The notes under the pieces: generated by a model
The model's database searches: none
Told to the model about the DNA's origin: nothing
Seen by the model: only the letters and a program-made list of their open reading frames with translations
Assembly: GCF_019795155.1 (NCBI RefSeq)
Contig: NZ_JAILYN010000021.1
Location: forward strand, 1-64,000
From: Marinobacterium arenosum
Lineage (GTDB): Bacteria > Pseudomonadota > Gammaproteobacteria > Pseudomonadales > Balneatricaceae
Direction: 5' to 3'
Length of the DNA: 64,000 bases
Made by a program: the position numbers and the translations under genes
Shown here: in pieces, positions 150-61,352 of the stretch
How the letters are laid out: each line of letters begins with the position of its first letter
Numbering within the stretch: position 1 is the first letter of the stretch

Positions 150-815
150 CTACAGAGCTTTACCTAGTTCAACCAGATCCGCCACCACCAGATCCGGCTC
201 GATCCCCCAGGGGTCGAACAGGGTCTTGTCGCTGCGTTTGATCCAGGCGGCGTTCAGGCCGGCGCTCTTGCCGCCGATCACATCCCAGGGGTTGCTGGAG
301 ACCAGCCAGCAATCCTCTTTGCGGCTGCCGGTCCGTTCGACCAGGTAGTCGTAAACCACCGGATTCGGCTTGTAGGTGCGTTTGTCGTCGACGCTGACGA
401 TATCGCTCAGCAGCGGCAGTACGCCGGCCTGTTCCAGCAGCGGGCGAACCGAACGTTCCGGACCGTTGGAGAAGGCGACCAGGGTGTGGCCCTGGGCTTT
501 CAGTGCCTGCAAGCCGGGAATCACGTCGTTGAAGGCATCAAGCGTCAGGAACTCTGTCAGCAGTGCTTGCTGCTGCTGGTCCGAAAGTTCCAGGTTGTAG
601 ACCTGCAGGCAGTAGCGCAGGGCGTCGTGGGTGCAGGTGCCGAAATCCTCGTAGCGGCCCATCAGTGCGCGGCGAAACGCATACTCCACCTTCTTGTCAT
701 GCCAGAGCCGGCCGAAGGCTTCCGCCTCATCGCCGATCAGGTCGCCGAGTTTGTAGGCCACGGCGACCGGGTCCACCAGGGTGCCGTAAACATCGAATCC
801 AATTGCGCAGGGCAT
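150..815 (-). CDS. Haloacid dehalogenase type II (HAD superfamily hydrolase)
   Basis: A 221-residue HAD-superfamily protein of the (S)-2-haloacid dehalogenase type II group. These enzymes hydrolyse L-2-haloacids to D-2-hydroxyacids through an aspartyl ester intermediate. Motif I is at residues 7-13 (GFDVYGT, nucleophile Asp8). The motif II Ser/Asn pair is near residue 116 (FSNGP), the motif III Lys near 149 (YKPNP), and an SSNPWD stretch near 172 matches the family's SSNxWD signature. Length is normal for the family. The gene stands alone and its natural substrate is unknown; many close homologues are annotated only by family. Confidence 0.85.
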   Translation of the reverse strand: MPCAIGFDVYGTLVDPVAVAYKLGDLIGDEAEAFGRLWHDKKVEYAFRRALMGRYEDFGTCTHDALRYCLQVYNLELSDQQQQALLTEFLTLDAFNDVIPGLQALKAQGHTLVAFSNGPERSVRPLLEQAGVLPLLSDIVSVDDKRTYKPNPVVYDYLVERTGSRKEDCWLVSSNPWDVIGGKSAGLNAAWIKRSDKTLFDPWGIEPDLVVADLVELGKAL

Positions 816-1030
816 TCCACCATCCTCCTTCTTCCCGCAAAGCCCCTCAAGCGCTGGAGAGCCAACGGTATTCCATGGAAATTCAAGATTATCCCCTAAG
901 GGATAGTCCTTAATTTAGGGTTCGTTCAGGAATATATTGAAAAATCGCTCAATTAACCAGCGAGGCGCTGTGAATTGTTTGGACGTTTGCCGTGACAGAC
1001 GAGGAGGCGAGGTTTGCCCCGAATTACGTT

Positions 1031-1067
1031 GGTCGCGCCTGAGTGCCCGACCGGAAGCTCTCCTACA
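1031..1067. repeat. REP-like palindromic unit
   Basis: Read on the minus strand the unit begins TGTAGGAGAGC and ends CAGGCGCGACC, the TGTAGGAG...GCGACC form of REP palindromes common in pseudomonads and relatives. It lies in the 338-bp gap between the HAD and parvulin genes, in which I see no convincing gene. The gap also holds a short palindrome (TATCCC/GGGATA) near 890-905. Confidence 0.45.
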
Positions 1068-1153
1068 GTAGGACCGGGGGCAAAAAACGTGCGAGGAACG
1101 GGCAGGCGATCCGCTGGGGGTTGGGGCGCAACCCGTATCAAAAAAAGGAAAAA

Positions 1154-1432
1154 TCAGCCGCGGTAGATCACTTCCACCAGGTGGAAACCGAACTGGGTCT
1201 TGATCGGGCCGTGCACCACCAGCTCTTTCTTGCGGAAGATCACGTTGTCGATCGCCTTGACCATCTGGCCGGGCCGCACCTCTCCTAGGTCGCCGCCGCG
1301 CTTACGGGAGTTGCACAGCGAATGCTTTTTGGCCAGCTGGCCGAAGTCGGCACTCTTGGCCAGTTGCTGTTTCAGCTGTTCCGCTTCCTGTCGGGTTTTT
1401 ACCAGGATATGGCGGGCGAGGGCGGTACTCAT
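1154..1432 (-). CDS. Parvulin-type peptidyl-prolyl cis-trans isomerase (PpiC-like)
   Basis: A 92-residue single-domain parvulin. These catalyse cis-trans isomerisation of peptidyl-prolyl bonds. ARHILVK at the N-terminus, the SLCNSRKRGGDLG segment in the middle and FGFHLVEV at the C-terminus are the conserved parvulin blocks, including the two His positions. There is no signal peptide, so it should be cytoplasmic like E. coli PpiC (93 residues). The frame is open further upstream, but homology begins at MSTALARHIL, so I place the start at 1432. No strong ribosome-binding site precedes it. Confidence 0.87.
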   Translation of the reverse strand: MSTALARHILVKTRQEAEQLKQQLAKSADFGQLAKKHSLCNSRKRGGDLGEVRPGQMVKAIDNVIFRKKELVVHGPIKTQFGFHLVEVIYRG

Positions 1433-1539
1433 AGGACTTGGCTTCTTCAGTTTCTTTAGGGGATGGAAAGGCGGGGATATTAACATCTCCCGCCCATATC
1501 GTGATGCGGAAAGGCTAGGGGCTGCAACAGGGGGGAGTC

Positions 1540-58866: not shown

Positions 58867-58891
58867 CTAGAAAAACTAGAAAACTAGAAAA
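58867..58891. repeat. Three tandem CTAGAAAA units
   Basis: CTAGAAAAA, CTAGAAAA and CTAGAAAA follow each other; the last contains the stop codon of the minus-strand radical SAM gene. The surrounding 143 bp (58741-58883) hold no gene. Confidence 0.6.
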
Positions 58892-59948
58892 GCGAGAACT
58901 GGTCACCGGCCTGTGGTGGCGGGGCGAACAGGTCGGTACGCAGCGGCAGTTGATCCCGTTGTAACAGGCCGTGTCGTTTCAACGCCAGCCGGAAACGCTG
59001 GGCGATCATATCGGCGAACAGTCCCTCGCCACGCATCCGGGCACCGAAGCGGCTGTCGTTTTCGCGGCCGTCGCGGCTTTGCCGGATCAGGCTCATCACA
59101 TGCTCGGCGCGTTCCGGATAGTGGCAATCGAGCCATTCGCGGAACAGCTCCTTCACCTCGTGGGGCAGGCGCAGAAAGATATAGCCGGCCGAGCGGGCAC
59201 CGGCGGCTGCACTGGCTTCGACGATAGCCTCGAGTTCGCGGTCGTTGATCATCGGGATCAAGGGGGCAACCAACACCCCGACCGGTACGCCGGCGGCGGT
59301 CAGCTCACGGATCGCATTGAGCCGGGTATTCGGACCGGCCGCGCGCGGCTCCAGGCTGCGCTTAAGCTGCGGATCCAGCGTGGTGAGGCTGATCATCACC
59401 GTACAGAGCTGCTGGCGGGCAAGCTCGGCCAGGATATCCAGGTCCCGGCTGATCAACGCGCCCTTGGTGATGATGCTGACCGGATGGCGATAGCGCAGCA
59501 ACACCTTCAGCAGCTCGCGGGTGATCTGCCGGTGCTGCTCGATCGGCTGGTAGGGGTCGGTGTTGGCCCCCAGGGTGATCGGCTTGCAACGATAGTTCGG
59601 TGCGCGCAGCTCCTGTTCGAGTCGCTCGGCGGCACCGGTCTTGCAGATGATATGGGTTTCGAAATCCAGGCCTGGCGACAGGTCCCAGTAGGCGTGGCTG
59701 GGACGGGCATAGCAGTAGATGCAGCCGTGTTCGCAGCCGCGATAGGGGTTGACCGACTGCTCGAACGGCACGTCGGGTGAGCGGTTGCGGCTGATAATGG
59801 TCTTCGGCCGCTCGTCGATCTCAACGGTAGCAATCCGGGCCGGTAGCTCATCATCCGGCACAGGTTCGAAGTCGCTGGTCGTCGGCGCAAAGCGGTTTAC
59901 GGGATTGGACAGCGCGCCTCGCCCTTTAGGCGGATACGGCTTCGGCAT
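58884..59948 (-). CDS. PA0069-family radical SAM protein (SplB-like)
   Basis: A 354-residue radical SAM protein of the group typified by Pseudomonas aeruginosa PA0069, related to spore photoproduct lyase. The cluster motif CEHGCIYCYAR is near residue 72 (canonical C-x3-C-x2-C). NPYRGC before it and LGANTDPYQPIE near residue 126 are conserved. The gene is single, transcribed away from the LexA box 26 bp before its ATG, so a DNA-damage role is likely. Confidence 0.88.
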   Translation of the reverse strand: MPKPYPPKGRGALSNPVNRFAPTTSDFEPVPDDELPARIATVEIDERPKTIISRNRSPDVPFEQSVNPYRGCEHGCIYCYARPSHAYWDLSPGLDFETHIICKTGAAERLEQELRAPNYRCKPITLGANTDPYQPIEQHRQITRELLKVLLRYRHPVSIITKGALISRDLDILAELARQQLCTVMISLTTLDPQLKRSLEPRAAGPNTRLNAIRELTAAGVPVGVLVAPLIPMINDRELEAIVEASAAAGARSAGYIFLRLPHEVKELFREWLDCHYPERAEHVMSLIRQSRDGRENDSRFGARMRGEGLFADMIAQRFRLALKRHGLLQRDQLPLRTDLFAPPPQAGDQFSLF

Positions 59949-59973
59949 ACAAAGCTTCCCCTGTCTTATGTGA

Positions 59974-59993
59974 TACTGTTTTTATATACAGTA
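59974..59993 (-). promoter_or_regulatory. LexA (SOS) box
   Basis: TACTG-N10-CAGTA is a perfect match to the ends of the LexA consensus, with an AT-rich TTTTTATATA centre. It lies 26-45 bp before the PA0069-like ATG, where a promoter would be blocked. PA0069 is a reported member of the P. aeruginosa LexA regulon, consistent with this. Confidence 0.9.
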
Positions 59994-60111: not shown

Positions 60112-60203
60112 AAGGCCGTGTTTTGAATTAAAAAGCGGCGCCTGCATTGCAGGCGCCGAAAAACGGGCTTTAGAGCCCCACCGAGTGCCAACTATCGCAA
60201 GAA
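60112..60203. repeat. 92-bp direct repeat, copy 1 (contains terminator hairpin)
   Basis: This copy aligns without gaps to 60279-60370, 167 bp further on. It contains the perfect hairpin CGGCGCCTGC/GCAGGCGCCG (60136-60158). On the minus strand that hairpin is followed by a U-rich tract, and before it lies a degraded copy of the last codons of the ornithine-cyclodeaminase gene (IVGTRWGS versus SVGTRLGL, stop lost). It is a partial duplication of that gene's 3' end. Confidence 0.75.
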
Positions 60204-60278: not shown

Positions 60279-60370
60279 AAGGCCGCGCTTTGAAGAAAAA
60301 ACGGCGCCCGCTTGGCAGGCGCCGAACAACGGGCTTTAGAGCCCCAGCCGTGTGCCAACGCTGGCAAGAA
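60279..60370. repeat. 92-bp direct repeat, copy 2 (3' end of the cyclodeaminase-like gene)
   Basis: The second copy, most similar to copy 1 in the AACGGGCTTTAGAGCCCC core. It includes the last 35 bases of the ornithine-cyclodeaminase-family gene plus its terminator, so this is the probable parent of copy 1. Confidence 0.75.
60296..60324 (-). terminator. Terminator of the ornithine-cyclodeaminase-family gene
   Basis: CGGCGCC(C)GC and GC(A)GGCGCCG form a GC-rich stem. On the minus strand it is followed by six U residues. It begins 12 bp after the gene's stop. Confidence 0.87.
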
Positions 60371-61352
60371 TCGCGCGGTCGAAGATCTCTCGGCCGACCA
60401 CGATGTCGCAGACCGCCATGCCGATATTGCTGTTGACGATCAGTTCGTCGCTGTGGCTCCGCCCCTGCTTGAGGCCGGCGAGAATCTCACCGGTTTCGGC
60501 GTAGATGCTCGGCAGGCCGTCGGGGAAATAGCCCATACCGGCGAACAGCTCATGTTCCTCGATGCTGTCGACGATATATTTGTCGGCCCGCCGGGAGGTT
60601 TCCGGTGCCCAGAATGTATTGAGGTCACAAGGCAGGATGGTCTGCCCCTTGGACAGCCATTCATCTTTTACCACCGACAGGCAGTCCTTGAGGATGATGG
60701 TTGCCGAACAGAGAACCTGGCAGCTCTTGGCAACCTCTTCGGCGGAACGTCCTTTGACGATCTCCACATCGATCAGCGGCTGAACCTCGCGGATCAGGTT
60801 GTCCATCGAAGCTTCGTTGATATCGTAGACATAGATTTTCTTGAGCTTTTTCAGGGTGTGAACGACGTATTTCACATGTTCGATACCCTGCACACCGCAA
60901 CCGAACATGCCGAAGGTTTCAGCGTCCGGGTGGAAGGCTTCGGCAGCCAGCACAGACACAGCCGGCGTGCGAACGGCGGTAATCCAGGTCGAATCCATCA
61001 GCGCCACCGGTGCGCCGGTGTCGACGTCGTTGACGACCAGCAGACCGGTGGTCTGCGGCAGGTCATACTCCTTCGGATTGCGCGGATAGCACTCGATCCA
61101 TTTCATACCCACCGCAGCTTTTGACGGCACATAAGCCGGCATCGCGTGGTAAAAAACATCCTCGTAGGGGTGGACGCCAATCTTGGCCGGCATCTCGTAG
61201 CGTTTTTGACCATGCTCAATCAGGGCATCGCGGGTCAGACCGAGAATGTCTTCAGTCGTCAGTCCAATATCCATAACCTGCTGCTTGGTCAGGTAAAGCA
61301 TCTCTTTGCCAATATCGAGATGGTTTTGGATCTGTTTTCTTTCCAGGGTCAT
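60336..61352 (-). CDS. Ornithine cyclodeaminase/mu-crystallin family protein
   Basis: A 338-residue NAD(P)-dependent enzyme of the ornithine cyclodeaminase/ketimine reductase family. KWIECYPRNPKEYDLP near residue 84 and the Rossmann motif FGCGVQGIEHV near residue 149 are typical; the substrate Lys and Asp positions around MKW and DLN are kept. Such enzymes act on ornithine, pyrroline-2-carboxylate, alanine or ectoine intermediates. The neighbouring TRAP transporter gene suggests an imported amino-acid derivative. Specificity is unknown. Confidence 0.85.
   Translation of the reverse strand: MTLERKQIQNHLDIGKEMLYLTKQQVMDIGLTTEDILGLTRDALIEHGQKRYEMPAKIGVHPYEDVFYHAMPAYVPSKAAVGMKWIECYPRNPKEYDLPQTTGLLVVNDVDTGAPVALMDSTWITAVRTPAVSVLAAEAFHPDAETFGMFGCGVQGIEHVKYVVHTLKKLKKIYVYDINEASMDNLIREVQPLIDVEIVKGRSAEEVAKSCQVLCSATIILKDCLSVVKDEWLSKGQTILPCDLNTFWAPETSRRADKYIVDSIEEHELFAGMGYFPDGLPSIYAETGEILAGLKQGRSHSDELIVNSNIGMAVCDIVVGREIFDRAILASVGTRLGL

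Follow-up and report, generated by a model that had tools for sequence, protein, structure and literature searches.

The palindrome TACTG-N10-CAGTA just upstream of an SplB-like radical SAM gene in Marinobacterium arenosum raised the question of whether this gene belongs to the SOS response and, if so, what its product would do there. In the window (the whole stretch of DNA analysed, 64 kb), one exact copy of this pattern, TACTGTTTTTATATACAGTA, was found, against a chance expectation of 0.01 and with a match in 1 of 100 shuffles. The product of the adjacent gene matched the NF033668 (rSAM_PA0069) model over its full length with 491.5 bits (curated cut-off, 360), and also matched Pfam Radical_SAM. 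No difference from the PA0069 family (NCBI type hypoth_equivalog) was seen, and the nearest named relatives were Marinobacterium proteins with 78-83% identity. The palindrome and its position before this gene, both read by the initial annotation, were confirmed with two corrections: the gap between TACTGTTTTTATATACAGTA and the ATG (59948-59946) is 25 bp, not 26, and the span 59946-59993 given for the box holds the palindrome but also takes in the start codon. The features are listed in Table 1.

Table 1. Features of the radical SAM locus (positions in the window)
Feature	Position	Strand	Remarks
LexA (SOS) box TACTGTTTTTATATACAGTA	59974..59993	.	18/20 match to consensus of 76 orthologue boxes
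PA0069-family radical SAM gene, 354 aa	58884..59948	-	CX3CX2C cluster motif, residues 72-79
Codons of C-terminal QFSLF, putative beta-clamp-binding pentapeptide	58887..58901	-	Residues 350-354
Probable ribosome-binding site AGGGGA, 5' of ATG	59957..59962	-	Read from the sequence
Terminator-like hairpin upstream of radical SAM gene	60136..60158	-	
Second terminator-like hairpin, near-identical, just past end of upstream gene	60302..60324	-	
Upstream gene, presumably ornithine cyclodeaminase-like	60336..61352	-	Named by eye

Since two terminator-like hairpins lie between the upstream gene (which we take, from its sequence, to be ornithine cyclodeaminase-like) and the radical SAM gene, the latter most likely has its own promoter, with TACTGTTTTTATATACAGTA sitting at the expected promoter position. 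A sigma-70 consensus promoter pair was sought around TACTGTTTTTATATACAGTA, and none was found. By eye, the surrounding genes of the window were metabolic and not related to repair. Both hairpins fall within 200 bp and look like a duplicated end of the upstream-gene region.

The core CTGT-N8-ACAG occurred at 39 sites in the 4.8-Mb genome, compared with 25 for the reversed control, and is therefore weak evidence for a LexA box on its own; it is the 20-bp match that counts. Using the consensus TACTGTATATATATACAGTA, derived from the 76 exact boxes of the CTGT type that the 250 loci contained, we scored 37 of the 39 sites with their flanks, 36 of them in up to 3 kb of surrounding sequence plus the window box (window sites 1661 and 25878 were left out). 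Six sites matched at 16-19 of 20 positions (18 for the window box) and the other 31 at 13 or below. Downstream of these six were the radical SAM gene, a GFA-domain gene, a topoisomerase gene, dinB, recA, and lexA, the last of which has a further, weaker box. A LexA protein scoring above the family cut-off (249.5 bits) is encoded in the genome, and the canonical boxes before lexA and recA spoke against a repressor with another consensus, which the initial annotation had named as a possible refutation. On this evidence, the genome seems to have an ordinary SOS regulon of the gammaproteobacterial kind, and the radical SAM box is part of it. That TACTGTTTTTATATACAGTA arose by chance, or acts on a different gene, is scarcely credible in spite of the commonness of the core, because the 20-mer was expected 0.01 times in the window, a box at about the same position was present in the three nearest relatives, all Marinobacterium (78-83% identity), and the two hairpins separate it from the upstream gene. 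The best box scored in the genome (19/20; L008:1499-1518) lay upstream of the GFA-domain gene (1052-1447, minus strand), which would be an unusual member of the SOS regulon; no Pfam match was obtained for the ORF that flanks this box on its other side.

Upstream regions of orthologues were scanned for LexA boxes in three samples. The first consisted of the best 80 matches in genome contigs, closest first, and is biased toward close relatives; groups were assigned by record title. In 49 of these 80 loci, an exact CTGT-N8-ACAG lay no more than 150 bases ahead of the conserved RGA codons. Within 330 bases, it was found in 28/29 loci of Pseudomonas/Stutzerimonas, 0/8 alpha-titled, 1/3 beta-titled, 0/4 Rhodanobacter/Xanthomonas-type, and 20/36 other loci. 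The alpha-titled loci carried GTTC-N7-GTTC instead (7/8), and GAAC-N4-GTTC was found in two of the three beta-titled loci (Nitrosomonadales and Gallionellaceae); all four Rhodanobacter/Xanthomonas-type loci were without any of the box types tested.

The second sample was spread evenly over the class: 117 of 369 genomes were above the family cut-off, and 110 loci were read. An exact box within 150 bases was detected in 12 loci (19 with one mismatch allowed), all 12 belonging to the 59 genomes in which lexA matched strongly (E at most 1e-55), as against none in the other 51 (Fisher p = 3.6e-4). In an unbiased count of all 4-mer dyads over 130 bases, CTGT/8 showed the largest excess (12 loci vs 0.17 in shuffled sequences), the runner-up reaching 11 loci vs 2.9 in letter shuffles. 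On the other hand, 98 loci had no exact box, and 47 of these were among the 59 genomes with strong lexA matches, which argues against universal SOS control: the box is specific to certain lineages of the class.

In the third sample, spread evenly over the phylum, 111 of 299 genomes were above the cut-off, and one locus per genus was read (43/43 genera outside the class and 17/18 new genera inside it). Outside the class, in genera that are probably mostly alphaproteobacterial, GTTC-N7-GTTC was found within 330 bases in 38 of 43 genera and not once in 63 kb of gene body; in reverse orientation, it had no upstream match among the 60 loci. By itself, this pattern was common in four genomes subjected to a pattern search. 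Inside the order/class, 15 of the 17 newly read genera had CTGT-N8-ACAG; among eight class genomes read earlier, three had the box (G162, G272, and G107) and five did not (G365, G012, G165, G274, and G367), giving 18/25 in total. In actinobacterial Rv2578c-type relatives on large plasmids, GAAC-N4-GTTC was located near the likely start in two of the four found among the best 40 of 50 records, with starts judged by eye.

In PMC3323433, the passages on LexA motifs name GTTC-N7-GTTC as the motif of alphaproteobacteria and GAAC-N4-GTTC as that of Gram-positive bacteria. One gene family thus appears behind three different LexA motifs, in keeping with the repressor of each lineage. Such a change of box type with the local LexA motif is expected of real SOS control, and we regard SOS control of the window gene, as judged from these patterns, as nearly certain. 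The link to DNA damage outside Pseudomonas, which the initial annotation drew from the single box, was supported: many relatives keep the box and the motif switches, although, at 12/110 class-wide, the box is not universal. In two betaproteobacterial loci (L110 and L120), GAAC-N4-GTTC was seen by eye just past a promoter-like pair, TTGACA...TATAGT, and LexA bound there would block initiation. The Xanthomonas-type LexA motif is TTAG-N6-TACTA; the upstream regions of the 80 named loci held no copy of it, and those of the 110 class loci held one. This copy, TTAGTAATAATACTA, belongs to L152, where a PA0069-family gene lacking the CTGT box has it 85 bases upstream of its conserved RGA codons. This may perhaps represent a fourth LexA type behind the family.

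PA0069 itself is reported to belong to the SOS response of P. aeruginosa. SOS control beyond Pseudomonas is not news because it has already been published, in passages on COG1533/'splB' genes, for alpha- and betaproteobacteria (PMC3323433) and Bacteroidetes (PMC8565304). As described there, splB likewise encodes a radical SAM protein and is preceded by the LexA motif of its own lineage, and by this description it resembles the PA0069 type. The relevant passage of PMC3323433, a 2012 study of multi-chromosome bacteria, gives the trait as not observed in gammaproteobacteria, whereas it is present here; this statement needs widening. A clamp motif is not mentioned in the splB passages of either paper, while the window protein has a clamp-type tail (see below). 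Among open-licence papers, we found none on PA0069 that also treats LexA, and none joining radical SAM/SplB proteins to the bacterial clamp. Related reports, as far as their passages on the subject go, are of a 'DNA repair photolyase' of M. tuberculosis that depends on RecA (PMC8151990, with no locus number found in the main text) and of an increase, under EGCG, of a 'DNA repair photolyase SplB' in P. fluorescens (PMC5435343).

The name 'splB' suggests spore photoproduct lyase (SPL), and the fold of the window protein was compared with this enzyme. An AlphaFold2 model from 32 sequences (mean pLDDT, 79; pTM, 0.81), in which residues 1-14, 18-37, and 79-96, the last a weak stretch just past the cluster, were below pLDDT 50, had six SPL entries (PDB 4FHC and variants) as its top solved structures, with Foldseek E values from 3.5e-10 to 6.7e-9. 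Their Z scores were 17.3-17.8 over 260-267 residues (15.0 for the next family), and the best match had Z 17.8 and an rmsd of 3.6 with 263 residues aligned. PDB searches with the single sequence or the family profile did not reach SPL, and a broader profile reached it weakly, aligning the cluster region. The CX3CX2C motif is common to both, its cysteines being invariant in 32/32 aligned members, and the Tyr inside it was kept at 249 of 250 loci.

Cys140 and Tyr98 of SPL were a different matter. Its H-donor Cys140 (numbering counted from the cluster cysteines; Ala in the C140A entry) precedes T-S-D, and the matching stretch in the PA0069 family was G-x-N-T-D. Cys was absent from positions 127-129, the three candidates for Cys140, in all 243 sequences, out of 250, in which the stretch was found. 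At the position of Tyr98, 129 of the 250 sequences had Phe, 120 kept Tyr, and 1 had Gln. The PA0069 family thus differs from SPL in lacking Cys140 and in often having Phe for Tyr98; its conserved clamp-type tail may be a further difference. These comparisons suggested an SPL-like fold, for which the known SPL chemistry cannot be assumed; because the H-atom donor is absent, the substrate is unpredictable from homology. An identity as SPL itself, with SOS-controlled repair of the 5-thyminyl-5,6-dihydrothymine dimer, would agree with the structural ranking, the retained cluster and inner Tyr, and the name given to the SOS gene in the splB passages of PMC3323433. We nevertheless consider it very improbable in view of the missing Cys140 equivalent (243/243) and Phe at the Y98 position (129/250). 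Moreover, profile searches with the window protein returned no SPL family model at E values up to 1e-3, and the host bacteria are, as generally known, non-sporulating.

The window protein ends in GDQFSLF. A clamp-type motif, defined as Q-x-x-[LMIF]-[FLWIMY] or the hexapeptide form, was present within the last 12 residues at 243 of 250 loci (187/190 and 56/60); of the remaining seven, six had the pentapeptide further in and one (L257) had only QLTLPG. The same motif occurred in 5 of 633 other stop-to-stop frames of at least 250 aa in the first 190 loci (not all of these frames being genes), and in a mean of 19/190, and at most 31, shuffled tails. Among 231 pentapeptides, position 2 was L/M in 178, position 3 S/A/D/E in 166, position 4 L in 227, and position 5 F/L in 209, corresponding to Q-[L/M]-[S/A/D/E]-L-[F/L]. 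The consensus of beta-clamp-binding peptides is QL[S/D]LF, and these preferences fit it. DinB of the same genome (L028:428-1501, minus strand), with a LexA box at its start, ends in GEQLSLF. The same type of tail was found in all four actinobacterial relatives (QESLF, QLTLL, QEPLF, and QLRLL), and was absent in all eight more distant radical SAM relatives, including three haloarchaeal ones. The actinobacterial Rv2578c family (NF038135) is related to the PA0069 family, with this tail in 4/4 and GAAC-N4-GTTC upstream in 2/4; a Tsukamurella member (L231) scored 478.9 bits, above the cut-off of 430, whereas the window protein scored 233 bits, below it.

In the alignment, the tail sits behind a variable linker, and in some members is located up to 10 residues further in. 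Loci without the box, and even genomes without a lexA match, still had the tail; with this wider distribution, it is probably the functional feature that arose first. The motif might alternatively be a structural or degradation tail that is no clamp ligand, with SOS control being independent of it. Model confidence was indeed low there (pLDDT 49 in the last block), but clamp-like residue preferences are kept, the position at the end behind a variable linker, sometimes up to 10 residues inward, is what a docking peptide could tolerate, and the motif is missing in the eight distant relatives; we hold this explanation to be improbable. Docking of the tail on the clamp, DnaN, is likely, and we think that the clamp-type tail, which the initial annotation had missed, is better evidence for a role in replication or repair than the LexA box. 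DinB and ImuB combine a LexA box with a clamp motif in the same manner as here, differing in being polymerase-type proteins and not radical SAM proteins. According to the relevant passage of PMC10421592, focus formation by ImuB in DNA-damaged mycobacteria requires its clamp motif.

On the whole, we favour with fair confidence a reading in which the window gene encodes a LexA-repressed, clamp-tethered radical SAM enzyme that processes DNA lesions at replication forks. LexA would repress the gene at its own promoter, and DNA damage would induce it through LexA self-cleavage. The last residues, QFSLF, would dock on the beta sliding clamp, like the DinB tail and the ImuB motif, and would thereby bring the SAM-radical chemistry to stalled forks, gaps, or new DNA. 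There, on a presumed DNA substrate, the enzyme would most likely reverse or remodel a covalent base lesion (crosslink, adduct, or dimer) by a chemistry distinct from that of SPL, whose hydrogen-donor cysteine is missing here. For such lesion chemistry by PA0069-family enzymes, we put the prediction somewhat above an even chance.

A search by tblastn for lexA, dinB, and recA in 110 loci (L041-L150) returned a single neighbour, a dinB-like match at L129. There, a Y-family polymerase gene (PolIV-like; 246-1490, plus strand) lies directly before the PA0069-family frame ending at 2541 (plus strand), and in this genome the radical SAM match has a lexA-family match approximately 1.3 kb upstream of it. 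This polymerase neighbour is in line with the predicted fork or repair role.

The enzyme could instead be SOS-regulated and clamp-bound while acting on a substrate other than a DNA lesion (a nucleotide, tRNA, or protein), or be a regulator that competes for the clamp. Many of the radical SAM structures ranking below SPL act, by their titles, on peptides, tRNA, and small molecules, and clamp competition during SOS is established for Y-family polymerases. On the other hand, the closest fold, SPL, acts on DNA, and a purely binding role is unlikely because the cluster cysteines were invariant in 32/32 aligned members. Moreover, the published SOS lists, in their passages on this gene, place it among repair genes (PMC3323433 and PMC8565304). 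We therefore judge this alternative unlikely and retain lesion processing at the clamp as the preferred reading.

The role of SplB-like enzymes where no spore photoproduct is known is a question posed in print for archaea (PMC4929162). In the passages on the archaeal SplB-like/NreB pair, the SplB-like enzyme is tied by gene context to a sliding-clamp (PCNA) protein, its function is given as unknown, and crosslink repair is suggested. The PCNA motif there is less clear-cut and stands on the neighbour NreB, and the three haloarchaeal relatives that we examined were all without the bacterial-type tail. A clamp-delivered PA0069/Rv2578c class would, by analogy, parallel this pair. The clamp-type tail, which occurs across Pseudomonadota as well as in four actinobacterial relatives, points to DNA work at forks when combined with LexA control under three motifs. 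We tentatively suggest, at rather less than even odds, that PA0069/Rv2578c represents a new class of SOS repair enzyme, with clamp-delivered radical SAM lesion reversal at damaged forks. The target would be a lesion, perhaps a crosslink, of a type not known to have a direct-reversal enzyme. The five-residue tail offers a direct handle on whether repair depends on clamp docking.

Among the best 80 matches in a viral-collection scan, the majority were distant radical SAM relatives and one was close: a contig (L303:2001-2999) with a 53% identical PA0069-family gene near its end, which may be phage or host DNA. In phages, distant relatives only were found (7 records, none covering 80%). On a Staphylococcus plasmid (L236:175-2301), a distant radical SAM relative lies between 2OG-Fe(II) oxygenase and DNA glycosylase genes, a trio that is possibly a small repair island. 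On a cyanobacterial (L239) and a haloarchaeal plasmid (L241), distant radical SAM relatives adjoin tcmP (three-Cys-motif partner) genes.
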